IMG/VR virus record: IMGVR_UViG_3300044213_000107
Location: 1-64,000 of that record
DNA length: 64,000 bases
Reading direction: 5' to 3' (one strand)
DNA from: a virus
A model generated the notes under the pieces. That model was not told the DNA's origin. It did no database searches and worked only from the letters and a program-made list of their open reading frames with translations. Of this stretch, positions 2,978 through 23,635 are shown piece by piece (position 1 is the stretch's first letter; each line of letters starts with the position of its first letter). The translations under genes and the position numbers were made by a program.

Positions 2978-2978
2978 T

Positions 2979-3266: not shown

Positions 3267-3275
3267 AATGTTTCC

Positions 3276-4648: not shown

Positions 4649-5004
4649 TTTTGACTATCACCTTTGCTTATTCTATAGTTATCTTCCACCGAGTCGGGGG
4701 TACTAACTTCAATAACAGTACCGGCGTCAATGCAAACTAGTTGATGAGGTAGTCCGGGAGGATTATGCCAAACTGAACCCACAGCCAACTCTTGTTCGTG
4801 TAGTTCTGCGGTAGCGGTATCTATCCAACGTACAGTAAACCGACCGCTTTGTACATACCAAGTTTCATCTTTGGTTAAGTGAAAATGCATACTAAATCTA
4901 GCACCAGTATCAAAATTCATCATTTTTCCGCAGTAGAGATCATTGGTGGCCCATATAAATTCAGAGCCCCATCCTTTTTTTACTTGTCCTGTTAGTCTTG
5001 TCAT
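4645..5004 (-). CDS. cupin, mannose-6-phosphate isomerase type II-like
   Basis: 119 residues from ATG 5004, which forms an ATGA overlap with the galE stop; an in-frame ATG at 5019 is the alternative. The sequence GWGSEFIWA, then SMHFHLTKDETWYVQSG (metal-binding HxH and Glu) and PPGLPHQL with IEVSTP is the pattern of the C-terminal cupin of ManC/phosphomannose isomerase. It probably isomerises a hexose phosphate or nucleotide sugar. Part of the galE-cupin-DegT-folE coupled operon. Confidence 0.8.
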   Translation of the reverse strand: MTRLTGQVKKGWGSEFIWATNDLYCGKMMNFDTGARFSMHFHLTKDETWYVQSGRFTVRWIDTATAELHEQELAVGSVWHNPPGLPHQLVCIDAGTVIEVSTPDSVEDNYRISKGDSQK

Positions 5005-5972
5005 TTTTTTGTATACCATTTATATGCACTGTCAATGATGGTAGAAACATCACTGTATACGGGTTTCCACCCTAGCCCTGTGTTGGCTAAATCAGCATTG
5101 GCTATTAACTTTGCTGGGTCTCCTTCACGTGGTGGCCCTACATATGTTTCTAGACCATATTTCTCTTTAACGTAGTTGACTATTTCTAAATTGCTTATTC
5201 CCGAAGTTGTTCCAAGATTGACTCGATAAGCACCATTTTGCGGATAGTCATCTAGTAAAAAATTAGTGGCCGCAATATGTGCCCATGCTAGATCCCACAC
5301 GTGTATATAATCCCTTATGCATGTACCATCTGGTGTTGCATAATTTCCGCCGTTGATAGTAAACGGTTGTTTATTAATACTGGCTTCTAGAGCACGTGCA
5401 ATGATGTGTGTGGCACCAGGTTCTTGTCCGAGATCGAAGTGCTCGGGCTCGGCACCTGCGGCATTAAAATATCTAAAGGCAACACTATGGATGCCGTATG
5501 CGTGATTATAATCGTCGAGAATATATTCAATCATGGCCTTGGTGCGACCATAGGGACTAATAGGGTTTATTGCGGCCTTTTCGTCGATGGGCATCACTTC
5601 GGGTTCACCGTAAACACTAGCACTACTGCTAAACAGTATAACAGGTTTCTTGTCCATGGTTCGTATCATATTCAACATAGCAATGGTTTTTGCTACATTG
5701 TTATGATAGTATTCGCCAGGGTCCATGACACTGGGTCCTACTAAACTTGTGCCTGCACAATGCACAACAACATCAGGTTCTAGTGTATAGATTGTAGCAA
5801 GTCCTTCGGTACTGGCAAAGTCACCAATATGATAACCATCACAATCTTTTAGAGTATGATCTCGTTGAACACGATCAACGATTACAACACTGTCACCGTT
5901 TTGTTTAAATGCACGAGCTACATGACTACCAATGTAGCCACATCCACCTGTTACTACTATCTTACGTGTCAT
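5001..5972 (-). CDS. galE: UDP-glucose 4-epimerase (GalE)
   Basis: 323 residues, full length for the family. The NAD-binding GGCGYIGSH is at residues 9-17, the Ser cluster SSSAS at 115-119 and the catalytic YGRTK with Tyr141 and Lys145. The SVYGEP and RYFNAAGA segments and a C-terminal GWKPVY are typical of GalE. It would interconvert UDP-glucose and UDP-galactose in the cytoplasm, supplying the dehydrogenase and glycosyltransferase encoded beside it. Its ATG overlaps the stop of a small coiled-coil gene. Confidence 0.93.
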   Translation of the reverse strand: MTRKIVVTGGCGYIGSHVARAFKQNGDSVVIVDRVQRDHTLKDCDGYHIGDFASTEGLATIYTLEPDVVVHCAGTSLVGPSVMDPGEYYHNNVAKTIAMLNMIRTMDKKPVILFSSSASVYGEPEVMPIDEKAAINPISPYGRTKAMIEYILDDYNHAYGIHSVAFRYFNAAGAEPEHFDLGQEPGATHIIARALEASINKQPFTINGGNYATPDGTCIRDYIHVWDLAWAHIAATNFLLDDYPQNGAYRVNLGTTSGISNLEIVNYVKEKYGLETYVGPPREGDPAKLIANADLANTGLGWKPVYSDVSTIIDSAYKWYTKK

Positions 5973-8316: not shown

Positions 8317-8345
8317 ATTATACGACAAAGAAAAATTATTGTCTA
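8317..8345 (-). promoter_or_regulatory. sigma70-like promoter TAGACA-N17-TATAAT
   Basis: -35 TAGACA (8340-8345) and perfect -10 TATAAT (8317-8322) with 17-base spacing, reading toward queD. The same -35/-10 words recur at 39976-40005 and 55537-55565, suggesting the phage's early promoter class. Confidence 0.7.
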
Positions 8346-9505
8346 GTTGCATAGATGTCCGAAAATACTTTTTTACTATCTAGATTCCGAGATAAATCAG
8401 TTTCCTCAAAAAATTTAAATATATCGTGATGTTCAATAACACCAGTCTTTAAAAAATCAATTAGTACCCGAACATTAGTACCAAATCGGTCTTCTCCAGC
8501 ATATCTTTCAGCAATTTCTATAGTATCTTTGATATATGTTTTTGGTAACATCCTCGGATCTAAATACGAAGGGTGGTGACCACCGTTAATATAGTTAACA
8601 TTTAAATTTTCTCTTGTAAATCCTAAAGAAAATAAGTAGTCAACAAAATTAAAAAAACTTTTTGTGTTTAAGGCTAGATATACCATATTAAATGCTATTT
8701 CTTGTGTTTTAGGTATATTATTTTTTAAAAATTTTAAATTAGTATCAAAAGTTGACCATACTCCGGGATATCTAATGTATTCATATCTCTCGTACATGTC
8801 TTCGGCACTAATTAACCACATTACATTCTTAAATTTTAATAACAGATTAAAAATTTTATTATTTTCAATCATTGAAAGATTTGTGTTAACTAATATTTTA
8901 CAATTAGGGTTAACTTCTAATAATCTTTCAAGAATTATTTCATTCTCTTTAATTAATAATGGTTCGCCGCCTGCCATATAAATTTTTTCTAATGTTGCAG
9001 CATTATCGCAAAAATACTGTATTAATTTAGAAATTGCAGCATCGTCGCTAACAGGGAATATCTTTTTTTCTGCAGCCCAAGTTGAGCTTAAATCCTCACT
9101 ACAATATACACATGCATAATTACACGTGTTTCTAAATCTTAAATCTGCGTATCTAAGCTCAAATTTATCAGGATTATCATAAATTGTTTTATCGAGATGC
9201 TTAAAAATGTTAAGCATAATATATCTTAAATAATTGTTGATATTTCCAGCATTATCTCCGATCGCAAGATTTTTTGGCGGATAACATCTACTGCACCCGT
9301 CGACTCGTTTGCCATCTAACATATTTTTACGTATACTGATGTTATAATCGCTGTTAATTATTTCTTCAATGGCATTATTTTTAATATTTCCAAGTCGATT
9401 TCTTGCAATACAACAAGTATCAGTAAGTCCATCTGGTTCTACGTATATGCTGGTCCATGGTAATGGACAAAAGGCATCATTGCCCCAATATTGATCTTCA
9501 GTCAT
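8336..9505 (-). CDS. radical SAM protein with N-terminal SPASM-like domain (A)
   Basis: 389 residues. The first 75 form a SPASM-like cysteine domain: CPLPW (Cys13), PDGLTDTCC (31-32), LGNIKN, then CSRC (71, 74). The radical SAM barrel follows with RNTCNYACVYC (Cys128, 132, 135) binding the SAM-coordinating 4Fe-4S cluster and AGGEPLLIKEN. This order is the reverse of canonical SPASM enzymes. Substrate unknown; not QueE, which is much shorter and lacks the Cys domain. It lies between queD and dpdA, so a role in base modification is possible but unproven. Its stop overlaps the promoter of queD. Confidence 0.88.
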   Translation of the reverse strand: MTEDQYWGNDAFCPLPWTSIYVEPDGLTDTCCIARNRLGNIKNNAIEEIINSDYNISIRKNMLDGKRVDGCSRCYPPKNLAIGDNAGNINNYLRYIMLNIFKHLDKTIYDNPDKFELRYADLRFRNTCNYACVYCSEDLSSTWAAEKKIFPVSDDAAISKLIQYFCDNAATLEKIYMAGGEPLLIKENEIILERLLEVNPNCKILVNTNLSMIENNKIFNLLLKFKNVMWLISAEDMYERYEYIRYPGVWSTFDTNLKFLKNNIPKTQEIAFNMVYLALNTKSFFNFVDYLFSLGFTRENLNVNYINGGHHPSYLDPRMLPKTYIKDTIEIAERYAGEDRFGTNVRVLIDFLKTGVIEHHDIFKFFEETDLSRNLDSKKVFSDIYATRQ

Positions 9506-10017
9506 TATATTATTTTATCCTCACTGTATTTACTCCAATCGGTAAACGCAGATCTATTCATTAAACTATGTAGGCTATAACACCACACACCTGGATTAGT
9601 TGCTTGAAAATCTCGATCATCAAGTTTAAGTGTAGCATTATAACCAAATTTATTAATGTAAGGAAGCTTAACACTAATCATTGGAATAAAGTTATTATAC
9701 TCACATAAGGAACAATTAGTAAGTCCTTCGACTAGTGCAACATCAATATCCAAAGTACATAGATAACCTTTATTTAAAAAATACTTAATAGTTTCTTCCC
9801 ATACTGCCCAATCTGCTGTACCAGGCACCGTTGGAAAACTCATATTTGCACCAAAGAATATATGTTCAACAGGATCACTGCCGCAGGTTAAATGCACTGC
9901 AATATCATCTGTAGTTTGTACACCCACAACAAACATAGTATATTTTCCAAATGCAGGAGTATGTTCTACTTCTGTTCCATAGAAGAATTGTGTATTTTCG
10001 TGTCCTTCTCTATTCAT
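9505..10017 (-). CDS. conserved hypothetical protein beside dpdA, 170 aa
   Basis: No family recognised. Visible features are TQFFYGTEVEHTPAFGKYTM near the N-terminus, FGANMSF, a CTLDIDVALVEG strand, and a NCSLCEYNN CxxC pair. Its stop and the start of the radical SAM gene share one base, and dpdA ends six bases upstream, so the three are co-transcribed. From memory similar proteins occur in T4-like aquatic phages. The steady linkage makes a part in deazaguanine insertion worth testing. Confidence 0.75.
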   Translation of the reverse strand: MNREGHENTQFFYGTEVEHTPAFGKYTMFVVGVQTTDDIAVHLTCGSDPVEHIFFGANMSFPTVPGTADWAVWEETIKYFLNKGYLCTLDIDVALVEGLTNCSLCEYNNFIPMISVKLPYINKFGYNATLKLDDRDFQATNPGVWCYSLHSLMNRSAFTDWSKYSEDKII

Positions 10018-10023
10018 ATAACA

Positions 10024-11595
10024 TTAACCTTGGGCGTGTTGTATTAATTCATTGGCTTTGCTACGACCATTAGTAGTCTTTTTACCTTTAAATCCTCTGG
10101 TGCCAATGATCTGATTCCAGTATCCTGCTGGACCAGAATATCTATGTGTATTGATAATTTCTATGCTGGCTTCACGAGAAGGTGCAGAAAATATACGTTC
10201 CACAATGTCTTCAAAATATTCATATAACCCACCATCGTGCCGCATCATAGCAGGATGCTCACCGGAGTCAAATCTACGATTTGCTTCTTGTACTGCAGTT
10301 ATATGTTGATATACATTATGTCCCATTAGCAACATATAACTAAAACTATCCCAAGATGTTTTGCCCCATTTGCCATTTTTATTTAGATCCGGCAACACAT
10401 CATACATTTCAGGGTCTTTAAAGTTATCCTCTGTTAGTACGACACCAGGCTTAGGAACTCCGGGTTTATAGATACAAATGTCTCGCATTGTTAACATATC
10501 GCTAACGGGAGATTCTTGCCAATTATCGTATACGCGGTCTGCTACTACCCCTTGGCTCCATTTACGAGTGTCTGAGGCGTATTTCTTGTTGTCGGCACTG
10601 GGAGCCATTCTATAACTCCATTTACCATCTTGTGGAAACACGTTTTCGAAGTAAACCTGTCCATTTGCTGTAGCGAGGAATGGGCTGGCACAATCAAAGG
10701 ATATAGTAAACGCCGGATTGGCATATTTTCTAACTGCCCTTTGAATCACGGTGAGTAGCACAGCCCATTCCAACTTTGACGTACCTAAGAAGTGCATCCA
10801 ATCATGTACACCTTCTTGCAACAAATTATCGTATTTTAAACTTATAATTCTTTTTAACACTAACTCAATATCGCACATGTTTTGTCCACCCATGGCCCAG
10901 CCATCAAAGTGTGTGTCCGGATAAACTGCAGGATCACAATAGTGTTTCATAGTCTGGTACCATTCTTCGGCACTGGCATGATTATCACCTTGCAGAACGT
11001 TTAAGATTTTAGTACCGCCATTATTTTTTCCACGGCGATGCTGCATAAAGTATTCATTGTTATACTTTGTTGCTGCTACAGCTTCTGGCAATGTTTTAAT
11101 CTTACATGCATCTGATGCTTTTTTATCATGAATAACCCAAGTTGGAATATCTAAGGTCATGCAGTAATCAGATATATTATCTAACCAATTAAAAACAGCT
11201 GCACGTTTAGCTTCGGCCTTGGGGCATCCTGAGCCGGCACGCCAATCACCTTCCCATAGTCCTTTAGCAATCTGGAATCCACCTGAATCACCTAGCATAA
11301 AAGTTCCGGGTTCGCGATTACGGATCATGTCTTCGCTCCAGTCTTGCTTGCTTAAATCCAAATTGGCATGCCCACCTGAATAAAGACTCCAACGGTAAGG
11401 AAAAAGACCTTTTGACGAATTAAGCCAGTTTAACTGTTCCATGTCTGTTAGGCCTTGCGGAAATCGAGCAGGGTCTACATAAGGATTTTGCGGATCTTGT
11501 CTTTGTTTTCCTATAAATGTAGCATAGAATCCACTGATAGCCGGGAGGTAAACGGCGTAGTCTTTTTGTTTTGCGGTTAAGTCATCTTGTGCCAT
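10024..11595 (-). CDS. dpdA: DpdA-like 7-deazaguanine DNA transglycosylase (TGT family)
   Basis: 523 residues from ATG 11595; a TTG at 11613 is a weaker alternative. It carries the tRNA-guanine transglycosylase landmarks: GDSGGFQ (residues 102-108, base-binding Asp), GWAMGG (232-237), HFLGTSK (268-274) and SFDCASPF with Asp301, the likely nucleophile. It lacks the tight zinc site expected of tRNA enzymes and has phage-specific insertions, which fits the DpdA branch that swaps guanine for a 7-deazaguanine in DNA. Together with FolE and QueD this predicts hypermodified DNA resistant to host restriction. QueE, QueC and partners are not in this window. Confidence 0.85.
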   Translation of the reverse strand: MAQDDLTAKQKDYAVYLPAISGFYATFIGKQRQDPQNPYVDPARFPQGLTDMEQLNWLNSSKGLFPYRWSLYSGGHANLDLSKQDWSEDMIRNREPGTFMLGDSGGFQIAKGLWEGDWRAGSGCPKAEAKRAAVFNWLDNISDYCMTLDIPTWVIHDKKASDACKIKTLPEAVAATKYNNEYFMQHRRGKNNGGTKILNVLQGDNHASAEEWYQTMKHYCDPAVYPDTHFDGWAMGGQNMCDIELVLKRIISLKYDNLLQEGVHDWMHFLGTSKLEWAVLLTVIQRAVRKYANPAFTISFDCASPFLATANGQVYFENVFPQDGKWSYRMAPSADNKKYASDTRKWSQGVVADRVYDNWQESPVSDMLTMRDICIYKPGVPKPGVVLTEDNFKDPEMYDVLPDLNKNGKWGKTSWDSFSYMLLMGHNVYQHITAVQEANRRFDSGEHPAMMRHDGGLYEYFEDIVERIFSAPSREASIEIINTHRYSGPAGYWNQIIGTRGFKGKKTTNGRSKANELIQHAQG

Positions 11596-12223
11596 AAAAT
11601 TCAACTTGTTCAATTAATTCGTAGTCTAATTGAAAATAATTTTTCAATTGCCGTTGATATTTAGAATTTTTTTCTAACTCTTGTTTAAAAATATTTTTAA
11701 TTCTTTGTCTTTCGGGACTGTTTTCACTTACATGCTGATAGTCGTATCTATGGTATCCATTTTCGCCTAGGTGTTTAGCAACAAACTCACCAAAGTTTTG
11801 TCTATAATTTTTGTCGCATAGAAAAAATGTAGCACGAGCAGTATCTATACCCGATATAAAGTTTACTTGACGTTCAGTATGGTCGTCAAATGCAATTCTA
11901 TCAAATACCAAATCAAAGAAACCACGACCTAAAAAAGCCAAGTCTATGTTTTTATGATATAAAGTAAAATATTCGCCAATGCCACTTAACCAACGATCAA
12001 CAGGATCTCGTAGAACTATTATGGCATGTTTATAAGGTGATACCATATCCAAGTGGTAGTTGTAAAACTCCCAGCCCCAGTCTTGCAAGTTTGGCTTGGT
12101 CCAGGAGCTGGCATTTTTAGGAATATGGATGTACATAAGGTCAGTGGTGGCGCTGGTCATGCATTCGCCATAACAATGACCTTTATGTTGCCATTGATTT
12201 AAAAAGTCTGCGTTGACAATCAC
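11582..12223 (-). CDS. sulfotransferase-like P-loop protein
   Basis: 213 residues from a GTG at 12223 that overlaps the clamp gene stop as GTGA; the longer ORF to 12259 would run into the clamp gene. MYIHIPKNASSW matches the PAPS 5'-phosphosulfate loop of the family 2 sulfotransferases (HIPKTAGTS) and VLRDPVDRWLSGI the 3'-phosphate motif RDPxxRxxS. The C-terminal half is charged helices. A cytoplasmic sulfotransfer to a glycan or small molecule is likely, but the acceptor is unknown. It sits between gp45 and dpdA. Confidence 0.75.
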   Translation of the reverse strand: MIVNADFLNQWQHKGHCYGECMTSATTDLMYIHIPKNASSWTKPNLQDWGWEFYNYHLDMVSPYKHAIIVLRDPVDRWLSGIGEYFTLYHKNIDLAFLGRGFFDLVFDRIAFDDHTERQVNFISGIDTARATFFLCDKNYRQNFGEFVAKHLGENGYHRYDYQHVSENSPERQRIKNIFKQELEKNSKYQRQLKNYFQLDYELIEQVEFYGTR

Positions 12224-12951
12224 TTGGTTTGTGCAGGAATAATATATGTGTATACACACAGACCTGAATCGACTTCAATCTCTGCAGCACCTTGATCGCT
12301 AAAGCGCATCTTTTTATCACCAGATAGTGCAAGAATATTCATAACAACTGCAACGGGCCAGTTCCATGATTTTGCAATAGTTCCAGCAACATTGCTTTCA
12401 AATGTAAAGTTGCCTGAATGGTTTGCAGGATCACCAAAGTAAAACTTTAAACTACCGTTTTCTGTTTTGGCTGTAAACGTAGTTTCTTCACTGTTTGCAC
12501 TTGCTTGCAAACGCAAACGCTGAATACCGTTTACGCTCGGCGTAAAGTCTACACCCCACTTAACCTGGGCCATGGTAAATGATTTTAGTTTATCATTTAC
12601 TACTTCTGCACTCATGTATCGGTAATCATTTTTAAAGTCACCGGCTTGATTTTCGAAATGAACTCCAACAGGAACATCTACCCCATCTTTATTTTGTAGA
12701 GTTGGAGTAATAGTTGCATTTTCTTTGTATTCTGGAATGTTAAGGATGGTAGTTAATTTTCCTAGATTAGGCATACCAAATGTACCAACAAACTCGGGCA
12801 CTGGATTGGCAAACTTTGCTTTTAAAATAACACTGCGATCTTCGGCAATAGCCGAAATCACAGTTTCAGTATCTGATCCAACAACTTTAACAAGGTCAAT
12901 ACAACCAAGGCGATGCGTATGCTCAACGATATCTAATAGATAATCTTTCAT
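12220..12951 (-). CDS. gp45: sliding clamp (T4 gp45 family)
   Basis: 243 residues, close to the 228 of T4 gp45. The sequence begins MKDYLLDIVEHTHRLGCIDL, has the inter-domain region with KLTTILNIPEY and repeats the two-domain clamp fold, ending VYTYIIPAQTK. The trimeric ring tethers gp43 to DNA and, in T4, activates late transcription together with gp33 and gp55. An AGGAG lies before ATG. A palindromic promoter region lies upstream. Confidence 0.92.
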   Translation of the reverse strand: MKDYLLDIVEHTHRLGCIDLVKVVGSDTETVISAIAEDRSVILKAKFANPVPEFVGTFGMPNLGKLTTILNIPEYKENATITPTLQNKDGVDVPVGVHFENQAGDFKNDYRYMSAEVVNDKLKSFTMAQVKWGVDFTPSVNGIQRLRLQASANSEETTFTAKTENGSLKFYFGDPANHSGNFTFESNVAGTIAKSWNWPVAVVMNILALSGDKKMRFSDQGAAEIEVDSGLCVYTYIIPAQTK

Positions 12952-12978
12952 TAAAACTCCTAATAATGTAATATGAAT

Positions 12979-13008
12979 AGTTTAACAGATTGTATTTAGA
13001 TCTGTCAA
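12979..13008 (-). promoter_or_regulatory. composite gp45 promoter with palindromic late box
   Basis: TTGACA (13003-13008) is a perfect -35 with a weak TAAACT (12979-12984) 18 bases away. Between them lies CTAAATAC (12992-12999), framed by CAGAT (12986-12990) and ATCTG (13000-13004) as an inverted repeat. Early and late signals therefore share one palindromic site. Confidence 0.45.
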
Positions 13009-13961
13009 ATGTTTCTGCGATTAATTGCACCCATTGCTTGGCTGGCTTTTACCGTTTTTAATTCGCCAGGGCGACGAATTTCCAACCAACTAACCGCAGG
13101 TTCTAGATCTTGACCGTGTATGATTTCAAAACCTAGTTGTTCGCACACAGGTACTAACATGCTTCTAGGCACATAACTCATGTAGTAGTTTTCTGCATAA
13201 GCAGCACCGGCGCTGATATCTCCATTATTAAATGTAAATATAAACACGCCACCTGGACGAAGTAGTTCGTATATTTGTACGAGATATTTTTGTATATTTT
13301 CTAAAGTTAGATAGTTAAAAAAGTTCCAGCTAAACACTAGATTAAATTGTTCTTTTGGCAGTCCTACAAGACGATATTCTTTAACACCATCTTCATCGGC
13401 GATTGTTTGTATTAGATACTTGCGTAAACGGTGTTGATATTCACCACTGAATTGACCAGCAGTAGTATCTAAAAATTCTTGATATATGTCGGTGATATAC
13501 AATGGATCTGCAGCAACTAATTGTTGGGTCCATTTACCATCTCGGCATCCAATTTCTAATGCTGGATATCGCCAATCTACCAATTGGTGTACACGATTTA
13601 GCAGTATTTGATCTGCTTCTTCACTGAGATGCAGACGTCTTACTTGACGTATATTATCAGGATTAGTATATTCTAACTCCTTTTGATAGTCGGGAGCAAA
13701 AAAATGTTGACTTTTATCTGCAATATCTTGATCAATTGCATTTGCAATTACATCCACAGTATCTAACGATGAATCTAATAGCTTAACTGTAGATTTATAT
13801 ACCTTTGACAGTTCTAATAACTTTTCTTTGTAAGGGTCGTCAATTTGAAACGCAAGATTTTCCATTCGATCTATAATGGAATTAAGCTCGTGTTCAGCTT
13901 TAGAAAAATCTGCAATAGATTCTAAACGTAATCGAAGAGCAACTAATTCATTGAGTTTCAT
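13005..13961 (-). CDS. class I SAM methyltransferase with helical N-terminal region
   Basis: 318 residues. The first 130 are predicted helices with heptad character (LRLESIADFSKAEHELNSII). The methyltransferase core begins near 150 with ALEIGCRDGKWTQQL (motif I), then VFSWNFFNYLTLE and LLRPGGVFIFTFNNGD (motifs IV-V). Target not evident; small molecule, protein or glycan are all possible. It lies between gp43 and gp45, transcribed with them. Confidence 0.8.
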   Translation of the reverse strand: MKLNELVALRLRLESIADFSKAEHELNSIIDRMENLAFQIDDPYKEKLLELSKVYKSTVKLLDSSLDTVDVIANAIDQDIADKSQHFFAPDYQKELEYTNPDNIRQVRRLHLSEEADQILLNRVHQLVDWRYPALEIGCRDGKWTQQLVAADPLYITDIYQEFLDTTAGQFSGEYQHRLRKYLIQTIADEDGVKEYRLVGLPKEQFNLVFSWNFFNYLTLENIQKYLVQIYELLRPGGVFIFTFNNGDISAGAAYAENYYMSYVPRSMLVPVCEQLGFEIIHGQDLEPAVSWLEIRRPGELKTVKASQAMGAINRRNI

Positions 13962-13978
13962 ATAATACCGTTATCTAG

Positions 13979-13986
13979 TATTTATT
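13979..13986 (-). promoter_or_regulatory. late promoter box AATAAATA over gp43 stop
   Basis: AATAAATA on the minus strand; its TAA (13982-13984) is the stop codon of the polymerase gene. It lies 17 bases before the methyltransferase ATG. Confidence 0.5.
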
Positions 13987-16642
13987 CGAAGGTAAACAGT
14001 TGATCAAAAGTTGTTTTTATATCTGTGTGTCCGGGAATATCCCAATCAAGTACACCAAGTAAGTTTTCTACTTTTTGATTTACAATGCCCATTTCCATTA
14101 GATCATCATCAAATGGCAGCTCTTTAAACCAAGCAGGAATATGCGACTCGTCTGTGGGATAGCCAACTGATGTGTATCCTAGTGGATTATCTTTAAGTTT
14201 ACACACAATTGTTTTCATACCATCCACAATCTGCATACTATAGTTGTCGCCGTACATGCGGCGCAGATTATTCCAGTTCATTGCAGCACGCACGTGTCCA
14301 GGCATGTTGGCTTTGCCCAAACGCTGTTCTTCGGCAGTATATTTTGTTAGATTGTTTACACGCTTTGGAGTACCTTTTTCCCAAGCAGGTCTGTCAGCAA
14401 ATGCTATTTTAAATTCACGTACTTTATCATAGATCTGTTCCTTTTCGGCACCAGTCAAGACATCTAACAAGATTTCACTTAAGAATTCCTGCACAATCTT
14501 TGGAGTGTCTGACCGCTTTAGGTCCAAGCCCATGGCTTTTACTTTACCAGGCTTACCACTTTTGTCTTGACGATTGCCTTCTAGATCATAAATCAGCACT
14601 GCATAACGTTTCTTTTTAATAAACAAACTCTTACTTGCAACAAGTTCACGACCGCCTCGAATAATAGCACCCATTTCTCGGGGACAATGACAAGCACGTT
14701 CCATGAATGCCGGAAATGATTCATTTACACTATCAGCAATGGCATCATACATCTGTATGCAAACGTCTTTGTTCCACTCTAAGGTACCCGCTTCAACTTC
14801 CGTTTTAATTGCCGGCCATGCGGAGAAGTAGACAGAATCCGTGTCACCGTAGATGACAGCCTGGCCAACATGATCGTAAGTGCCCGTGATTGCTTCATTG
14901 ACGTGCGAGTCCATATGTTTTGCGATAATGCGGCCTGTAAGCGTTGTACTTTGCCCAATACGTTGATCAAAGAACCTGCACCCGGGGTTAAGGATAGCGC
15001 CGTATAAGGAGTTAAGGTTAATTTTTTTGACGAGTTGTCTTTTATCCCAGAACGCAATGTCTTCAGCAGTTTCTGCGGTCTTCTTTTTTGCTTGCATTTC
15101 TTTTCGTTCTGCATACCATCTCTCCAATAAACCTGGGATTATTCCCTTCATGTCATACTTAAAAATTGTTCCGTTGGCACTAAGTGTCCAAGGCTCTCGC
15201 CCTTCAAAGATTAATCGCCATACATCGGCGGCACTAAGCACATCACTGCCACCAGATTCCCAGTCTATGGTAATTTCTGTGCCGGCTTCTAAATTCATTA
15301 CTGCTTGGTATTCTAAACTACCAAACATGTTTTCCCAGGCATCGGCAAAACTTGCACCGGCGTCCATCTTTTCTTTAATATAGTGGTCAGTCATTACCGG
15401 GCGGAGTTGCCCAACGACTGTTTCTGGTCCCATGTTAAGGGCTCGAATAGCCGAGGGGTAGAGACTGTTGATGTCAATGGCGCCGACCCATTCGTGCATT
15501 CCTTTTTTGGGATAAGCAACATAGGCACCTGCGGCTTGCGTGTTTTCTTTGTCATCTCGGTTTTTCCTATTAGGTACAATCATACCACGTTGATGTGCTT
15601 CATTGATAATAGCTTGTTCTGTAACTGCAACTGCACCCATTGTAGTTGCTAACAGCACAGTATTATCATGTGCAATTTCGTTTGCAAGGTCGATAAAACG
15701 TAGTTTCTTATCAAACTTTGCAATCAACATGGTATCTTGTCGGTTATAGTCAATGAACTTAGGAAAGTCTCGATTATACAATTGATCAAGAGTGCCTTCG
15801 TAGGCAACTTTGCGTTCATCCAGTTCATATTCGCCGATAGCGTCTAGGCTATAACTGTGTCGTTCTTCATATGTGTATTTACGATATAACTGCATATAGT
15901 CCATATGAACACGACCTATTAGGTCAAAGGTTATATTTTCTGCACCAAACCGTTCAAAGGTACGTTGTTTTGGATATTGTCCCCATAAACACATTCTACG
16001 TGTGTCGTCTTTGCTTAACACACGAGTAATGCGCATTGTGGTATATGGAATATCAAAACCTTCTGAGTTCCATCCGCTTAAAATATCTGCATCGTCGATC
16101 AAGTCAAGGAAGGTGTTAAGCATATCCTCTTCACGTTCGAACAAAAAGCAGTTTTCAAATTTACTACAAATTTCTTCGGCGGATTCCCGGGAATAACTCT
16201 TCGGCGGTATAACCAGGGTGACTAATTTATCCATCCAGTCAAGGTACACAGAAATAGCAGTAATTGGATTAAACGGATCTTCAGGTTTAGAATACCCACG
16301 CTCGGGGTCAAAGTCGACCTCAATATCAAAAAACGCTGTATGTAATTTTGGTGAAGTAGCACCCAAGTAGTTGGTTTCTAAACAACGAAAGATAGGATTG
16401 ATGTCAGACTCCCACAAACGTGTACCCGACATTACTTTTAATTCTTTGTGATATTCTTTTGAATTTCTTGTGTTGAATCTTGACACAGGAGTGTCAAAGA
16501 TTGTTCTAAACTTACCGCGAGGATCATCATAGTAAAATATATAATCCGCCGGATATTCGCGATACTCTCTTTGGCCGTTTACACGTTCAACAACGTGAAT
16601 ACGATCCTTTTGACGATCATAGAGTGCATCAACATACGACAC
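13982..16642 (-). CDS. gp43: DNA polymerase, family B (T4 gp43)
   Basis: 886 residues, near the 898 of T4 gp43. Exonuclease motifs: DIE at 106-108, WNSEGFDIP at 191-199, and Tyr299/Asp303 in DYNRQD. Polymerase motifs: DINSLYPS (390-397), KKINLNSLYGA (539-549) and YGDTDS (598-603). All catalytic acids are present, so both proofreading and synthesis should work. The C-terminus ends DQLFTFE, in the position of the clamp-binding tail. SD AGGAG precedes ATG. It replicates the phage genome with gp45 and gp44. Confidence 0.97.
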   Translation of the reverse strand: MSYVDALYDRQKDRIHVVERVNGQREYREYPADYIFYYDDPRGKFRTIFDTPVSRFNTRNSKEYHKELKVMSGTRLWESDINPIFRCLETNYLGATSPKLHTAFFDIEVDFDPERGYSKPEDPFNPITAISVYLDWMDKLVTLVIPPKSYSRESAEEICSKFENCFLFEREEDMLNTFLDLIDDADILSGWNSEGFDIPYTTMRITRVLSKDDTRRMCLWGQYPKQRTFERFGAENITFDLIGRVHMDYMQLYRKYTYEERHSYSLDAIGEYELDERKVAYEGTLDQLYNRDFPKFIDYNRQDTMLIAKFDKKLRFIDLANEIAHDNTVLLATTMGAVAVTEQAIINEAHQRGMIVPNRKNRDDKENTQAAGAYVAYPKKGMHEWVGAIDINSLYPSAIRALNMGPETVVGQLRPVMTDHYIKEKMDAGASFADAWENMFGSLEYQAVMNLEAGTEITIDWESGGSDVLSAADVWRLIFEGREPWTLSANGTIFKYDMKGIIPGLLERWYAERKEMQAKKKTAETAEDIAFWDKRQLVKKINLNSLYGAILNPGCRFFDQRIGQSTTLTGRIIAKHMDSHVNEAITGTYDHVGQAVIYGDTDSVYFSAWPAIKTEVEAGTLEWNKDVCIQMYDAIADSVNESFPAFMERACHCPREMGAIIRGGRELVASKSLFIKKKRYAVLIYDLEGNRQDKSGKPGKVKAMGLDLKRSDTPKIVQEFLSEILLDVLTGAEKEQIYDKVREFKIAFADRPAWEKGTPKRVNNLTKYTAEEQRLGKANMPGHVRAAMNWNNLRRMYGDNYSMQIVDGMKTIVCKLKDNPLGYTSVGYPTDESHIPAWFKELPFDDDLMEMGIVNQKVENLLGVLDWDIPGHTDIKTTFDQLFTFE

Positions 16643-16662
16643 TAAAATTACTCCTTTTGTTA

Positions 16663-17931
16663 TTAGTAATAGATACTATAAATTTTCTTAACATCTAAAT
16701 CTGGATGAAAGCGTTGTACTTGGTCTAAACAAAAATGTATTATAGCATAATCATCTGCAAATTTACTAGAGCGTGTTAGTTCTTTCATATAACTATGGGC
16801 AAATCTAATTTTTTCATAGTCTGATCCAGTGAAGTCGCAGTCTAAATTATCGGCAACTTGATCTGCGACTGATTGCGGAACGCTGGCAATACCAAAGTTA
16901 ATGTCTGCGTGCCAGACTAAATTTGGTTCAGCAATACTGAAACGATTTTTGGGATAACGCTTAACCAAGTACCGCCAGAAATCCATAACATGATGAAAGT
17001 TTAAACTTGTAAGTGTAGTAATTACATTTACCTTAACTGACTTACCTAGCAGTTGTTGTTCTAGTTGCCATGCCATGAGTAAATCAACATTAGATTCTAT
17101 GCTAGGCCAATCACTTGGTGTTCTTTGGATGTAGGCTATTTCGTCCATGCCATCTAGGCTTAGATTAAGTTCTATAGTTTGATATTTGCTCAGAGTATCA
17201 AGCAAGCGACGATTAATATTTGTACAGTTGGTACTGGGCCAAACTTTTATCTGTTGACTGTATCCTAGTTCTACTAGTCGTTCTAAAAAATCTATGTTTT
17301 CTTTAACCAGTGTGGGTTCGCCACCTGTGATAAACAAACTGCGAATACTGTTATAATGGTCTGCAAATACCCGTTCTAGTCCAATTGACACGGGCCAATC
17401 AAACACAGTATTAAAATCTGTGTCGTGATTAAGTGGTGGAATGATACCTGGAACAAATGTTAGTTCCTGTGGTGTGTCGACAAAGCGTTTAAAAAACTTA
17501 CCAAAGTTTGTGCTAAATGCAGGATTACACATTTTGCATGCAAGGTTGCAAAGATTCCCTGAACTAACTTGAAAGTCAAATGCTAACTTAGATAAGCGAC
17601 CATTATTTTCTTTGGCTTCTGTGATACGGTCTTGTATAGATTCAACGGGAATTCTATTTAATGTTTTAAGTCGTAGACTATTGCCGGCGGCAGCTTCTTG
17701 TTCCCAACACACACGACATGCTTCGGGCTTTTCTCCGACAATTAAACTTTGTCTAAGGCTTTGTAGCCGATCACTGTTCCAAGCTTCTGTTAGTGTGTGC
17801 GTTGCAATGTTGTAGACATCACCGTTGGCATCCGTGTGCTCGCCGCTTATTGCCGCACAACAATATTTTATTTCACCGTTGGGTTCGATGTCAGTGTGTG
17901 CAAACGGATAAGGACAAATCGTTGAACTCAT
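16663..17931 (-). CDS. radical SAM protein with N-terminal SPASM-like domain (B)
   Basis: 422 residues. N-terminal cysteine domain CPYPF (Cys6), PNGEIKYCC (24-25) and CRVC (72, 75), then the barrel motif SGNLCNLACKMC (Cys128, 132, 135), identical in spacing to protein A, and ITGGEPTLVKEN. The C-terminal part carries NLSLDG and NVITTLTS strands. Substrate unknown. ATGA overlap with the small membrane gene upstream; 20 bases ahead of gp43. Confidence 0.88.
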   Translation of the reverse strand: MSSTICPYPFAHTDIEPNGEIKYCCAAISGEHTDANGDVYNIATHTLTEAWNSDRLQSLRQSLIVGEKPEACRVCWEQEAAAGNSLRLKTLNRIPVESIQDRITEAKENNGRLSKLAFDFQVSSGNLCNLACKMCNPAFSTNFGKFFKRFVDTPQELTFVPGIIPPLNHDTDFNTVFDWPVSIGLERVFADHYNSIRSLFITGGEPTLVKENIDFLERLVELGYSQQIKVWPSTNCTNINRRLLDTLSKYQTIELNLSLDGMDEIAYIQRTPSDWPSIESNVDLLMAWQLEQQLLGKSVKVNVITTLTSLNFHHVMDFWRYLVKRYPKNRFSIAEPNLVWHADINFGIASVPQSVADQVADNLDCDFTGSDYEKIRFAHSYMKELTRSSKFADDYAIIHFCLDQVQRFHPDLDVKKIYSIYY

Positions 17932-18239
17932 TCTAATGCGTGTATGATTAATTTAATTAGGCCAACCATGTCAATGCAGAACAATAGCGCATAGTTAGCC
18001 AGCATGCCAAAACTGCCCCGAGTCCAGGCGGCCCAGGCATACACTAGAGTACTGGCTACCCATATGCAATACAATTGCAATAGTGGTGGATTAGGCAAGA
18101 ATATTGTCATGCCTAATGCACATCCTACGCTACCAAACCAACCTGCGATTTCTAAACAAAATCGCAGAGGCCACTCACGGTAGTCTCTGCGTGCCCAATC
18201 AAGAGTATTATTGTACCATGACGAAATGGTTTGTTTCAC
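17928..18239 (-). CDS. small three-helix membrane protein, 103 aa
   Basis: After a basic N-terminus (WARRDYREWPLRF) there are three hydrophobic segments at about 27-45, 54-70 and 77-98, including WAAWTRGSFGMLANYALL. Similar unnamed membrane proteins are conserved in T4-like cyanophages (from memory). Couplings of four bases on both sides join it to the DsbA-like and radical SAM genes. Holin, pore or superinfection roles cannot be told apart. Confidence 0.7.
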   Translation of the reverse strand: MKQTISSWYNNTLDWARRDYREWPLRFCLEIAGWFGSVGCALGMTIFLPNPPLLQLYCIWVASTLVYAWAAWTRGSFGMLANYALLFCIDMVGLIKLIIHALE

Positions 18240-18496
18240 AGGGTTTTACCTACAGTTTCTAAAATAGTATTTAGATCTTCGTGATCCCTATTTGTCTCGC
18301 CAAGTTTGGCTTTGTGAGCAATACGAATTGCTTTTTTTAGCACAGCAGGCTTAACTTCTAACTCTTCGGCCACTGCTTTGATAGTGTCATTTAACCCTGC
18401 GGTAAGGTCTTCAACTTCACGCATTACCTGCATACCTTCGTTGATGATTTGAGTTAATTTTGCTTTTTGTTCACTTCCAAACATTAATGATGCCAT
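18236..18496 (-). CDS. DsbA-like small DNA-binding protein (tentative)
   Basis: 86 residues, almost all helical: MREVEDLTAGLNDTIKAVAE, then LEVKPAVLKKAIRIAHKAKL, then an acidic C-terminal helix. Length and layout resemble T4 DsbA, a double-strand DNA-binding protein that aids late transcription; I assign this only by overall pattern. First gene of the gp43-region operon, with SD AAAGGA, divergent from the 18533 gene. Confidence 0.45.
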   Translation of the reverse strand: MASLMFGSEQKAKLTQIINEGMQVMREVEDLTAGLNDTIKAVAEELEVKPAVLKKAIRIAHKAKLGETNRDHEDLNTILETVGKTL

Positions 18497-18519
18497 ATAT
18501 TTCCTTTGTTTTTATGTTG

Positions 18520-18527
18520 AATAAATA
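18520..18527 (+). promoter_or_regulatory. late promoter box AATAAATA, leaderless layout
   Basis: The box ends five bases before the ATG at 18533. In T4 the late octamer spans -13 to -6, which would place +1 exactly on the A of ATG. No SD is present. Confidence 0.55.
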
Positions 18528-18532
18528 TTTTT

Positions 18533-19888
18533 ATGAATATCAATCACAATCAAGTTGCTGTCGTATTGTACGATAACATACTACCCCAATACAAGAGTGT
18601 TAGAGCAAACTTACACGATTTTACTGAATTTAAACTAAATGGTAAACAACAATTTACTATTTTTGAAACAGAAAATGTATCCGATACTTTAACTGAACTC
18701 ACCGATCGAGAATTTGATTGGGCAGTTGTTATTGCAATTGGTACATACCTGCAAGGACAACATACTGTATTTAATACTTTGGATTTTGTCACAAATGAAA
18801 ATAGTCCACTATGTTGTCATATTATAAACAAGAACAACTGTTTTTATATGGATAGCCAATATTTTGCCATAGATTTAAAAACATACAAACAATTAGGTTG
18901 TCCTAGATTCGAAGAAACTGATAACACACAAATTGAAATTCCTGACATTCTAAGAAGTACAGATAATGTACACGATGATTATACTCCGTGGTGGATCAAA
19001 CCCGGTAATGGAACAAAACAACAGTATTCGGGTATGGGCCACTTTGGAATTCAAGCGGTATCAACATATATAGATGCTGGATATCAAATTGTTAACATTC
19101 CGCAATCGGTTCGTAGTCAAAAGAATTATAGTTATCCAAATTGGAATTACAATGATCTAGTAAATTTAATTGCAGATCCCAAATATGCAGTTCCGGAAAA
19201 CACAGGATTATTTTGGTTTAATCGGGATCTGAAAGTATTAACAAATAGTTTGAATCATGGCTATTATGTTATAAACACAGAAACTTTTTCTCGCAGTCCA
19301 CGTTCGGATAAAACACCATTGGATGTATTCATTGGTGTGTGCGGAGGATTTAAACCTGCATGCATAGTAGGTAAAGATAATTTTAGTGAAGATACAAAAG
19401 TATATCTTTATGATATTAGTCAAGCTGCAATTGATTGGCAACGATATTTAAAAACAAATTGGGACGGCGACCTAGACAAATTTGAATCTACGTTCAATTC
19501 TTTTCAGTCACAAAACCCAACTTACATGCCATTGTATTATGCTCATGAACCAATGAAAATAAACATAGATTGGTTTTTACAATCAGCAAACTTATCCGCA
19601 GAAGAATTCACCGCTCGTTGGCAAAAATATTTAAAAATGCCAACGGAGTTTATAAATCTAAATTTATTAGACAATGATGCAGTTGATCAATTAATTGCAA
19701 TATCTAAGAATTGCTCAAAAGGTGCTTACATATGGACCAGTAATGCATTTTTTATGGATTATATAATGTTCTTTAAATCTCGTGCCTGGACAAATCAAAA
19801 ACAACAAGATTTTATCAATGAACTAACATCAAAGGCCACTAAAACTATAGTGTTGGAAAACTGTGGTCAATTGACATTTATCAAGTAG
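18533..19888 (+). CDS. unknown 451-aa protein with possible Rossmann half
   Basis: I do not recognise a family. The N-terminal part (to about 130) looks like an alpha/beta domain with WAVVIAIGTYLQG. The middle repeats aromatic segments such as YTPWWIKPGNGTKQQYSG. From about 275, VFIGVCGGFKPACIVGKD followed by KVYLYDISQAAIDWQ resembles a SAM-binding Gly motif and acidic strand, so a diverged methyltransferase is possible. It is one of five plus-strand genes and converges on the oxygenase gene with an eight-base overlap. Context is the tailoring cluster of radical SAM proteins and oxygenases. Confidence 0.75.
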   Translation: MNINHNQVAVVLYDNILPQYKSVRANLHDFTEFKLNGKQQFTIFETENVSDTLTELTDREFDWAVVIAIGTYLQGQHTVFNTLDFVTNENSPLCCHIINKNNCFYMDSQYFAIDLKTYKQLGCPRFEETDNTQIEIPDILRSTDNVHDDYTPWWIKPGNGTKQQYSGMGHFGIQAVSTYIDAGYQIVNIPQSVRSQKNYSYPNWNYNDLVNLIADPKYAVPENTGLFWFNRDLKVLTNSLNHGYYVINTETFSRSPRSDKTPLDVFIGVCGGFKPACIVGKDNFSEDTKVYLYDISQAAIDWQRYLKTNWDGDLDKFESTFNSFQSQNPTYMPLYYAHEPMKINIDWFLQSANLSAEEFTARWQKYLKMPTEFINLNLLDNDAVDQLIAISKNCSKGAYIWTSNAFFMDYIMFFKSRAWTNQKQQDFINELTSKATKTIVLENCGQLTFIK

Positions 19889-20549
19889 CGTGTATTAGTA
19901 TTACGTCTTTGTGATCAACGACGTTATATTTTCGCCAGTTACTACTTGCATGCACGTATGTGCGATCAAACATACCCAATGAACCTAATTCATAGTTGTA
20001 TATGCCATCTAGTTCTAGGTAATTACAGATAATGCGATTACCTAATACACAGTGGTCAACATCATCGGCATGGCTAAGCTCGGGCAATTGTTGACCTTGT
20101 TCTAATTGAGTATTAATTTCTAGCAGTCCTGCTATTAATTCTTCGTTTGTAAAAAATTCTTGTTTCCAAACTATAGTTTTAAAAATATTGTTGGTATTTT
20201 CATATAGTGGAATTATACAACTTTTACCTATTTGTTTAGCATTTCTGTCGCCAGGTTCGTCAACATGTATCGAATGTGGAAGAATTTGTCTTTGATAAGC
20301 AACATATAATTGCACATGTTGTTTCATTAGAGATCTAAATGTTTTTTCTATGATTTTAAATGCACGATCAGAATGATCTAATACAACTCTTAAATCTAAT
20401 ACATCTGTGTCTACATTGTAGATTTGTTTGGCTTTTTCTCTATCATATGGTCTACTAGTAACACGGTCTGTGGCGAACTTTTCTGCCATGTCAGATCTAA
20501 GCCATTCTATTTGTTCTAGCGTTAAAAAATTTTTAAAACTCTCAACCAT
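19881..20549 (-). CDS. 2-oxoglutarate/Fe(II) oxygenase-like protein
   Basis: 222 residues. PHSIHVDEPGD supplies a HxD pair and DRTYVHASSNWRKYNVVDHKD the distal His and Arg/Lys expected of the double-stranded beta-helix oxygenases. N-terminal 90 residues are helical and basic. It probably hydroxylates a protein or small molecule. Overlap of eight bases with the next oxygenase gene indicates coupling. Confidence 0.6.
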   Translation of the reverse strand: MVESFKNFLTLEQIEWLRSDMAEKFATDRVTSRPYDREKAKQIYNVDTDVLDLRVVLDHSDRAFKIIEKTFRSLMKQHVQLYVAYQRQILPHSIHVDEPGDRNAKQIGKSCIIPLYENTNNIFKTIVWKQEFFTNEELIAGLLEINTQLEQGQQLPELSHADDVDHCVLGNRIICNYLELDGIYNYELGSLGMFDRTYVHASSNWRKYNVVDHKDVILIHAT

Positions 20550-21252
20550 TTTGCGCTTTCTTATAACTGTCTAATACTAGTCGGTTCCAATTGGGGTTTT
20601 TAGGTTCGCCGTGTACTATTATATGATACCGAGGGATATCACTATCGTTGTATACTGCATGTGTAATCCCATTGTCAAATAAAAATACACTACCGGTATT
20701 TTTAAATGGTAAACATCCGTCTGTGGTAACCATATTACAACCTTCAGGATGATTTAAACTTATATTAACGGCTGCATGCAAATGCCTTCTTTGATTGTCT
20801 CGATGTGGAGTGATATATCCTCCGGGTTCTAACAACATATATCGTAGTCTATGATATTTGGTGTAGGGAAAGATATTTTTAAAATAGTTTACTGTAACAG
20901 GACAACGATCTTGAATTTCTGTCCAGGTATAAGGTGCAGTATCCCAGGTCATTCCGTAACTTTCTGCACTACCAGTGTGTGTTGCACTTATTCCGTGAAC
21001 ACATAAACTATGCCAGCCTTGATGACTATTTTCGTCACCACGATGTTCAACGAACAGTTCTCTGAGATTTTTAGCCTCCTCTAGCATTTCTGTATATGGA
21101 GCATCGATTAATAATTCTAGCCATGGAGCCATTGATTTTGTATACACCCATTCTGTTTGTTCCCACCAATTGGCAATATCTTCGGGAATATGCGGATACG
21201 TGAATGTATTGTTTTTATTTTCGTCTACAAATTTTTGTGCGGCCGGGTGCAT
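20542..21252 (-). CDS. aspartyl/asparaginyl beta-hydroxylase-like oxygenase
   Basis: 236 residues from ATG 21252, which has AAGGA seven bases upstream; a GTG at 21273 lies further up. The jelly-roll shows YITPHRDNQRR (HxD), NISLNHPEGCNM, FDNGITHAVYNDSDIPRYH (distal His and Arg). This is the aspartyl/asparaginyl hydroxylase layout; such enzymes use 2-oxoglutarate and oxygen to hydroxylate protein side chains or peptidyl residues. The leader between it and the upstream gene is an unusual GC-rich structured segment. Partner substrate may be made by the neighbouring radical SAM proteins. Confidence 0.8.
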   Translation of the reverse strand: MHPAAQKFVDENKNNTFTYPHIPEDIANWWEQTEWVYTKSMAPWLELLIDAPYTEMLEEAKNLRELFVEHRGDENSHQGWHSLCVHGISATHTGSAESYGMTWDTAPYTWTEIQDRCPVTVNYFKNIFPYTKYHRLRYMLLEPGGYITPHRDNQRRHLHAAVNISLNHPEGCNMVTTDGCLPFKNTGSVFLFDNGITHAVYNDSDIPRYHIIVHGEPKNPNWNRLVLDSYKKAQNG

Positions 21253-21276
21253 AGTTAAATCCTTGGTGCTCACTTT

Positions 21277-21347
21277 CGGGATGTTTGGGCACGACTCCTA
21301 CTAATCCCGGGCCAGCAGCCGGCCCACACCTCCGTTACGAATAACGG
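21277..21347 (-). ncRNA. GC-rich structured RNA leader (candidate)
   Basis: In a 98-base gap, three hairpins follow one another on the minus strand: CCGTTA-TTCG-TAACGG (21332-21347, a UUCG tetraloop), GGGCC-7-GGCCC (21309-21325) and CGGGAT-21-ATCCCG (21277-21309). Their GC content contrasts with the AT-rich genome. No T-run follows, so it is not a simple terminator. It lies before the beta-hydroxylase start and after a radical SAM stop; a cis-regulatory RNA, processing site or attenuator are possible. Confidence 0.5.
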
Positions 21348-21350
21348 GTC

Positions 21351-22502
21351 CTAAGGGTGTTTTAGTAGCTGATACGCTTCGGGAAATGTATCGGCAAAAT
21401 TCTCTTTACGTAGGGAATCATACCCATCGGTAACACGTTTAAATTCTTGTAATAACTCCGGCGAATTATCGACACCCATCTCAAGCTGTGGAATCAAATG
21501 TTTCACAGCAGTATTGGTTAATTTATTTTTAACAGCTTGTTTCATTGAATCAGGTGCTATACGCATATTTAAGTGCAATGGTCTATGCAGTATATTAAAT
21601 CCACATGTTATTCCACGTTGGTTAAAGTACTGCCATATATCACTGGCATAATATATATTTAACAAACTTACAGTAACACATACACTTAAAACAACATTTG
21701 GATTTTCTGCAGCTAACTGTTGATATTTTGATAAGTTAACTTCAATCTCTGACCATTTTGCAGGATAACGCATATACTCAAATTGTTTGCCAATGCCATC
21801 CATGCTAATACCTATATCAACACTACGAAACTTTTTAAAAATTTCATAGTAATCATCTCTCCATACGGTTCCGTTAGTGTTTATGTGTATATCTACCGTA
21901 TCGGCTAAAGGCAGTTGGCTTGCAGCAGCAAGTAGTGACCAAAGAGGTTCAATTAGCAACGGCTCGGCGCCGTACAGGTCATAATAAACTATATCTTGAG
22001 CCCATTGATTTAATGTAGCCCAGGTTGCACTATCATCGGCAAAACTTTGTTGCGCACCACGAAACTGTTCTAGATAAACGGGATACGATGTTTCATCCGC
22101 TTCCACATGATAGTAATCACGAATCCAACGACTGCTCGTATGAGGGTTACAGTGCCTACAAGCAAGGTTGCACAAATTACCGGGCTTGAGCATAATAACA
22201 CGAGGATGGTCCGTAGGTATAACATTGGCAAACTGTTCATTACTTAATAACCTTTTACTGCGCCTTCCGGCTGCTTCTTCGTCCCAGCAGTCTTGGCAGT
22301 TGTGATGTTGCTGATTTGATTTTAATGCACTGGCAATTTCTTGTCTTGTGGGACTCGCCCATGCGTCTTCTAGCGTATGTTGATCAAGTCGAATAAGTGA
22401 TTGATCGTGATGTTGAAACCAAACACGACTTTGATTACACATTGATGCATAGCCACCATTTTGTGTACTTAGTCCTAGATCGGCTAACACACAATAGGTC
22501 AT
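21351..22502 (-). CDS. radical SAM protein with divergent N-terminal Cys domain (C)
   Basis: 383 residues from ATG 22502, an ATGA overlap with the upstream radical SAM stop. N-terminal Cys at 4, 22, 69 and 72 (NCQDCWDEEAAGR) match the SPASM-like domain in sparse form. The radical SAM motif is NLCNLACRHC (111, 115, 118). The glycine motif is YGAEPLLIEP, with Ala replacing the usual second Gly of GGEP, which may alter SAM binding. Paired in one operon with protein D. Confidence 0.85.
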   Translation of the reverse strand: MTYCVLADLGLSTQNGGYASMCNQSRVWFQHHDQSLIRLDQHTLEDAWASPTRQEIASALKSNQQHHNCQDCWDEEAAGRRSKRLLSNEQFANVIPTDHPRVIMLKPGNLCNLACRHCNPHTSSRWIRDYYHVEADETSYPVYLEQFRGAQQSFADDSATWATLNQWAQDIVYYDLYGAEPLLIEPLWSLLAAASQLPLADTVDIHINTNGTVWRDDYYEIFKKFRSVDIGISMDGIGKQFEYMRYPAKWSEIEVNLSKYQQLAAENPNVVLSVCVTVSLLNIYYASDIWQYFNQRGITCGFNILHRPLHLNMRIAPDSMKQAVKNKLTNTAVKHLIPQLEMGVDNSPELLQEFKRVTDGYDSLRKENFADTFPEAYQLLKHP

Positions 22503-23635
22503 TGAAATTCGGGCCAAAGATCGGCAAATTTTAGTGGACTATCGGGCCAGTATGTGTGTTCTTGTTCTGCATGCCAATCGTATAAGGTTTGAGTTTCTGC
22601 ATCGGGATTGTTGGCCTTAACTAAATTAGCAGCTTGCTCTTTAAAAAATTCTGCGGACTGTGGATTATATTTGATACTTTTAATTAATTCTCGTGCAGAT
22701 TGTTGCATAAATTTGTTAGGCAAACTAAATGCACTCAATCTATGTGGATGTGTTAGTTCTGCCCAACGTATTGGTGGCAGTTGGTTGTCTGCAAAATATT
22801 CATGTATGCTGCTAATATCTAAACAATTATACACACTAAACTGACCAGTTACATTAACACTTTGATGTGGTGCAGCATCTTTTAATGTTTGTATGTTGTG
22901 CAGCATCAACTGCCAGTCTGCCCCATGCCGCACATATTCAAAACGATCTTCTATGGTTTCAAAACTTATATCCCAGGTAACATTGTCAAGCTCGGTTAGT
23001 CTACGAAATATTTTATTTTTTTCTAATGGAACACTAAGATTGGTTATTACATTTATGTGTACTGAATTGTCAATGACATCTAGTAGTAGTTCGTTTTCTT
23101 TTTGTAACAACGGCTCACCACCAAGTAGTCCTAGATTTTTAATTGTGCTGCGATGCTGAACAATATAATCCATTATGCCTTGGATGTCAGCATAGTCTGC
23201 ACGTTCAAGTGGGTGTCCTTTTAATTGAGCCCAAATACTGCTAGCTTCTGACCCACAGTATACACAACTTAAATTACAGGTATTTGACCAACGAATGTCG
23301 AGATTTTGTAGTGGTTGATCTTTTAAACTAACAATAGGTATAGTTCGACGTTCGGCAATATCGTTATACCATGTGCGTTCTGTTACAGGAGTGTGTCGTT
23401 CGCGATCAATGCAAATGCGGCAATTATCATGTTCTTGATTATTAACAATAGCTGTTTTAATTTCATCTAGTAGACTATTGTTAATTGCAGAATCTAAACT
23501 AACTTCTCGCAGATTTCCCAATTCTGTTTGGCCAGCACAACAGGTCTTATAAACACCCAACGGGTTTATATGTATATTTGTCCAAGGAGCATAGCAAAAG
23601 TTTGACCCAATATCCGGGGTTAAATTGATTGTCAT
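22499..23635 (-). CDS. radical SAM protein with N-terminal SPASM-like domain (D)
   Basis: 378 residues. N-terminal CYAPW (Cys14), PLGVYKTCC (32-33), LGNLREV and CRIC (72, 75) form the SPASM-like domain; the barrel motif is SNTCNLSCVYC (120, 124, 127), followed by LLGGEPLLQKEN. It most resembles protein A by eye. Late-like TTAAATAC sits three bases before ATG. Function unknown; tandem organisation with C suggests two successive reactions or two related substrates. Confidence 0.88.
   Translation of the reverse strand: MTINLTPDIGSNFCYAPWTNIHINPLGVYKTCCAGQTELGNLREVSLDSAINNSLLDEIKTAIVNNQEHDNCRICIDRERHTPVTERTWYNDIAERRTIPIVSLKDQPLQNLDIRWSNTCNLSCVYCGSEASSIWAQLKGHPLERADYADIQGIMDYIVQHRSTIKNLGLLGGEPLLQKENELLLDVIDNSVHINVITNLSVPLEKNKIFRRLTELDNVTWDISFETIEDRFEYVRHGADWQLMLHNIQTLKDAAPHQSVNVTGQFSVYNCLDISSIHEYFADNQLPPIRWAELTHPHRLSAFSLPNKFMQQSARELIKSIKYNPQSAEFFKEQAANLVKANNPDAETQTLYDWHAEQEHTYWPDSPLKFADLWPEFQ

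Follow-up and report, generated by a model that had tools for sequence, protein, structure and literature searches.

The 64,000-nucleotide stretch of viral DNA analysed here (hereafter the window; positions 1 to 64,000 of IMGVR_UViG_3300044213_000107, a phage record of 260,723 bases in full) encodes six radical S-adenosylmethionine (SAM) proteins, A to F, that carry a Twitch/SPASM-type domain within their first ~80 residues, ahead of an ordinary CxxxCxxC barrel. Judged from their sequences, the six are paralogues within the NCBIfam family NF033640 (short name N_Twi_rSAM, twitch domain-containing radical SAM protein; hereafter N_Twi), and we consider it highly probable that they represent a class of two-cluster enzymes with this architecture. 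Each is encoded by one intact open reading frame (ORF) on the minus strand and matches the NF033640 profile over its full length with 208-282 bits (E 1e-61 to 1e-83) at a curated cut-off of 170 bits, scores that exclude a chance match. The CxxxCxxC motif lies in a partial beta/alpha barrel, as in the radical SAM superfamily at large, while profile positions 1-2 align to residues 2-11 of the six proteins. Since the first positions of NF033640 thus fall in the N-terminal domain, the Twitch-first layout was already catalogued and is not itself new.

These results bear on an original prediction, made from the DNA letters, which had described a SPASM-like domain moved in front of the barrel. The domain order was confirmed for all six proteins by NF033640 and the motif positions, and for A, B and D also by Pfam, with Radical_SAM placed after SPASM, as was the identity of the barrel cysteine positions 128/132/135 in A and B. 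The novelty that it implied was not upheld, because the layout is that of a curated NCBI family and its multi-copy state recurs widely. Similarly, its remark that databases label such proteins only as twitch-type was correct as to the twitch label, but the NCBI model starts at the N-terminal domain and says so in its short name. Related radical-SAM families are also present in PHROGs, and in the one library of literature searched we found no paper naming the NF033640/N_Twi family or a reaction for it.

The N-terminal Twitch domain

Alignments were made of the 11 N_Twi copies of the phage record and of 83 relatives, numbered here as in protein D. None of the 83 relatives lacks C14, C72 or C75, or any of the barrel residues C120, C124 and C127; at the fourth N-terminal site, 78 have C32 and 79 have C33. 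An interdomain E-x5-S-x-R element located behind the CxxC is likewise conserved, with E79 in 75/83, S85 in 77/83 (as Ser; Thr in D) and R87 in 81/83. A full SPASM, which has a seven-Cys motif and two clusters (motif as in PMC6231123), was ruled out, since the N-terminal region, leaving aside the paired C33, has four conserved Cys sites. These four sites point to the one-cluster form, and by its cysteine pattern the domain is a Twitch rather than a full SPASM. The full SPASM pattern claimed for A, B and D therefore stands only in part: all three exceed the Pfam SPASM cut-off, but B reads C-x-PF and VYN instead of PW and LGN, and the domain is of the one-cluster type.

A sparser four-Cys version had been proposed for C, E and F, and each of these indeed has four N-terminal cysteines in total, with one Cys where A, B and D have CC. 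Since Pfam SPASM matches C weakly and E/F not at all, the N-terminal cysteines might, in these three proteins or more widely, be a degenerate or structural relic that binds no cluster. We regard this as very unlikely: C14, C72 and C75 are invariant among the relatives, the only cysteine that C, E and F lack, in second place of the CC, has no counterpart in the butirosin biosynthesis enzyme BtrN either, and E/F share a clade with 13 cellular copies (support 99), so that the four-Cys form appears old and retained.

The identity of the domain was further examined with a profile of the N-terminal domain only, compiled from 23 domains and run against the PDB sequences with an E limit of 1. The sole matches were two BtrN entries, where the profile aligned to the C-terminal Twitch (residues 168-236 and 188-256; E 5.5e-5 and 6.7e-5) with the four Cys in register, BtrN having no equivalent of the second CC cysteine; 21 of the 23 domain pieces also match Pfam SPASM. 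In agreement with a Twitch, the predicted fold comprises a hairpin and two helices, with four cysteines for one cluster. When predicted in isolation, the N-terminal domain of D reached a predicted local distance difference test score (pLDDT) of 90.8, and Foldseek placed BtrN first (template modelling score 0.58, 1.5 Å, 65 columns), followed by TigE, SkfB and anSME. VIA-align matched it to anSME (4k37, 251-351, Z 5.1) and BtrN (4m7s, 165-245, Z 4.0), both C-terminal Twitch/SPASM regions, and the barrel of the D model aligns with anSME, PFL activase, BlsE, SkfB and viperin at Z about 12 (anSME 12.5). Two points weigh against the Twitch assignment. The sequence match to BtrN is modest, and the Foldseek E-values for the isolated domain exceed 0.1 although the top matches agree, so the fold evidence amounts to agreement and not proof. 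Taken together, Cys conservation, homology to the BtrN Twitch and the fold support the second N-terminal Fe-S site that had been predicted and speak, indirectly, against N-terminal cysteines that lie scattered. Residues 3-5 of D form a strand in the whole model and not in the isolated domain, which suggests that this strand may pair with the remainder of the protein; in SkfB, the barrel sheet is extended by the first Twitch strand (PMC6231123).

Table 1. Radical-SAM proteins of the window and their motifs (window coordinates; aa, amino acids; pTM, predicted template modelling score; NF033640 scores in bits).
Feature	Position	Strand	Description
Protein A	8336-9505	-	389 aa; N_Twi_rSAM; Twitch ~residues 10-78, barrel from ~113; NF033640 257.9
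A, Pfam matches			SPASM residues 13-75; Radical_SAM 126-277
A, N-terminal Twitch domain	9272-9505	-	residues 1-78; Cys 13, 31/32, 71, 74
A, radical-SAM CxxxCxxC	9101-9124	-	residues 128/132/135
Protein B	16663-17931	-	422 aa; N_Twi_rSAM; adjoins DNA polymerase gene; NF033640 236.0; Pfam SPASM 6-76
B, N-terminal Twitch domain	17698-17931	-	Cys 6, 24/25, 72, 75
B, radical-SAM CxxxCxxC	17527-17550	-	residues 128/132/135
Protein C	21351-22517	-	388 aa; N_Twi_rSAM, four-Cys form; NF033640 282.0, best of the window
C, radical-SAM CxxxCxxC	22149-22172	-	residues 116/120/123
Protein D	22499-23635	-	378 aa; N_Twi_rSAM; NF033640 220.1; AlphaFold pLDDT 95.1, pTM 0.91
D, N-terminal Twitch domain	23402-23635	-	Cys 14, 32/33, 72, 75; Pfam SPASM 14-75
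D, radical-SAM CxxxCxxC	23255-23278	-	residues 120/124/127
Protein E	43929-45164	-	411 aa; N_Twi_rSAM; single Cys at CC position; NF033640 208.4
E, radical-SAM CxxxCxxC	44775-44798	-	residues 123/127/130
Protein F	50641-51879	-	412 aa; N_Twi_rSAM; same clade as E; NF033640 241.1
F, radical-SAM CxxxCxxC	51490-51513	-	residues 123/127/130
Seventh radical-SAM protein	52814-53869	+	canonical order, barrel followed by SPASM-like 254-290; adjoins F

Copies, lineages and neighbouring genes

The full phage record contains 11 N_Twi proteins above the cut-off and 14 Radical_SAM matches overall. Related viral contigs found through D, which are fragments and whose genes, like those of the other loci compared, were called with a simple ORF picker, carry 1 to 7 N_Twi above the cut-off each; one of them has seven in 35 kb and one has five at 62.5-70.6 kb. 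Among cultured phages, D retrieved 41 records, 40 of them from Vibrio phages, with 1 to 4 places per record among the matches listed, whereas F retrieved two records and a tblastn of C against the phage collection returned none. Cellular members were sought by a DNA pattern biased to close matches of GNxCNLxCRxCxPxxSSxW, which returned 32 stretches, mostly labelled as Bdellovibrionota-type bacteria; some of these (e.g. Rickettsiales and Neisseriaceae contigs) look phage-derived. Twenty-four genomes searched on this basis have 2-42 N_Twi matches each, some below the cut-off. When 59 genomes were drawn from the phylum to which one of these belongs, 18 gave a match above the cut-off, which shows a patchy distribution. 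Already in 2017, a T4-like genome from the sea was published that carries, in 183 kb, 12 radical-SAM genes and an Fe-S carrier gene (PMC5332604). Many N_Twi copies in one genome are thus not unique to this phage, and six in 64 kb, which had been called exceptional, are so relative to cultured phages but not to related environmental phages or Bdellovibrionota-type genomes.

A phylogeny of the phage copies, which the original prediction had proposed as a check, was built with FastTree; its deep nodes are weak. The 11 copies of the record spread over several lineages: D clusters with 25 viral copies (support 100) and A lies beside them (98), while C, B and E/F each cluster with copies of related phages (99-100). 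At least five of the window's N_Twi lineages have orthologues in related phages. Recent tandem duplication of all the phage copies was considered but not supported: close pairs are confined to E/F (support 100) and to the copies at 189/204 kb (94), and the others are separate lineages.

As to origin rather than function, the Twitch-first order could have arisen when a SPASM gene and a separate barrel gene fused, which would make it a mobile module and not a constrained enzyme design. One Bdellovibrionia genome has such neighbours in both orders, a short ORF with SPASM-like cysteines directly upstream of a barrel-only ORF (L089, minus strand, 12171-12584 and 11475-12170) and another directly downstream of one (L088, plus strand, 14043-14399 and 13294-14046). 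However, the short ORFs match Pfam weakly (E 0.013) or not at all, and they may be fissions rather than ancestors; we consider the fusion scenario unlikely. A 735-aa protein at L090 (6906-9113, plus strand) combines an N-terminal SPASM match with two CxxxCxxC barrels in a single ORF.

C and D share 19 bases, where C starts before D has ended. In most contigs found through D, its orthologue lies between ferritin-like and alpha/beta-hydrolase-like genes, near the DNA polymerase gene. The window encodes a Ferritin-like protein at 27792-28226 (minus strand; Pfam Ferritin, 74 bits), a homologue of which stands beside D in most related contigs. A small, apparently membrane-spanning protein (17928-18239, minus strand) belongs to a family of 24 members that, in related loci, stays close to D or to the DNA polymerase gene. 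In raw neighbour counts over phage and cellular loci, taken without a background model, the commonest non-N_Twi neighbours are two other radical-SAM families, one seen in 10 genomes and the other in 9. To the former belongs the window's seventh radical-SAM protein (Table 1), whose barrel matches the N_Twi model weakly (42.8 bits); members of this family lie at most two genes from N_Twi genes in 16 of 18 cases, in 10 genomes. A family with a 'YDEP' motif and no Pfam match neighbours N_Twi genes in 6 genomes. Outside the window, at 145037-145643 of the record, genes for an A-type carrier and an IscU-like Fe-S assembly protein lie side by side; the IscU-like match is spread over two frames in the assembly, so its function is doubtful. 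IscU was dismissed as a general companion of N_Twi genes, being seen in the phage record but in 0 of 13 related contigs, which are partial. A TctC-type solute-binding protein is encoded at 48876-49850 (minus strand), and a similar-looking one near record position 193374.

Proposed chemistry and candidate substrates

In the mechanism that we propose for this widespread, multi-copy family, the cluster held by the barrel CxxxCxxC would cleave SAM to a 5'-deoxyadenosyl radical, by which the substrate would lose a hydrogen atom. The N-terminal Twitch, presumably docked at the same place as its C-terminal counterpart, would bind a second [4Fe-4S] cluster through its four cysteines, probably fully ligated, and this auxiliary cluster may accept an electron to finish a two-electron oxidation, by analogy with the proposal for BtrN. 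The BtrN auxiliary cluster has four Cys ligands and is likely an electron acceptor, whereas that of MoaA has an open site that binds substrate (PMC9012708). Given four cysteines as in BtrN, an oxidative reaction would be expected of the N_Twi enzymes.

With regard to the substrate, sugars or surface glycans are our favoured but tentative guess, ahead of peptides or proteins, the remainder including nucleotides. The gene context is suggestive only: a nucleotide-sugar dehydrogenase and an epimerase are encoded at 1851-5972 of the window, a carbamoyltransferase gene adjoins one N_Twi cluster and a glycosyltransferase family 2 (GT2) gene adjoins one cellular N_Twi gene. Two observations count against such a guess. 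The substrates of the Twitch enzymes MoaA, BtrN and SkfB are, respectively, a nucleotide, an aminocyclitol and a peptide, so the domain is uninformative in this respect; moreover, on our reading of the sequences, several cellular arrays appear beside housekeeping genes such as those of ATP synthase, with no glycan locus seen there.

Alternatively, the enzymes could modify ribosomal peptides or proteins, as do maturases of ribosomally synthesized and post-translationally modified peptides (RiPPs). Many studied SPASM/Twitch enzymes have peptide substrates, the best PDB profile matches of the barrel include TigE and SkfB, and an Asp/Arg-hydroxylase-like gene (20542-21273) adjoins C. Yet the N-terminus is occupied by the Twitch, with no leader-binding domain ahead of the barrel, and the search for small peptide substrates that had been recommended gave no candidate, as none of the short ORFs close to N_Twi genes is shared between independent genomes. 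Peptide or protein modification is, in our view, doubtful.

A phage queuosine pathway was also considered as a setting and set aside, since the window encodes FolE but the record gave no QueC. A 529-aa protein (10024-11613, minus strand) without a Pfam or PHROGs match has 36% identical counterparts in PA5oct-type Pseudomonas jumbo phages and bears a GDSGGFQ motif, which we take to recall tRNA-guanine transglycosylases. We also speculate, at rather long odds, that the N_Twi set of the phage lineage, long established and diversified, could be a tool-kit for radical chemistry on host-surface or phage molecules, supported by the phage's Fe-S assembly genes, with a Twitch that works equally well from either side of the barrel.

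Comparison with known systems

The papers and reviews consulted on SPASM and Twitch enzymes place these domains at the C-terminus (e.g. PMC9012708); in N_Twi enzymes, the same Twitch domain is conserved at the opposite end of the protein. All six window proteins share the domain order of NF033640, and the single Cys of C, E and F at the CC position is no family-defining difference. BtrN, a Twitch dehydrogenase (PDB 4M7T/4M7S), has a homologous Twitch whose four Cys are in register with N_Twi, but its Twitch is C-terminal and its barrel is just generally similar. The barrel fold of anSME, SkfB, TigE and SuiB is common with N_Twi, and the auxiliary domains of the first three match more weakly; in all four, however, the auxiliary domain is C-terminal, and a SPASM binds two clusters. 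The peptide enzymes SkfB and SuiB carry a leader-binding domain in front, where N_Twi enzymes carry the Twitch. Finally, the moaA/nifB/pqqE family proteins of the Vibrio phages KVP40 and phi-pp2 have a predicted fold similar to N_Twi, and the KVP40 match begins at query residue 13, thus including the N-terminal domain; they differ in their ~25% identity and in fewer copies per genome. The presence of N_Twi copies in cultured Vibrio phages opens the family to experiment.

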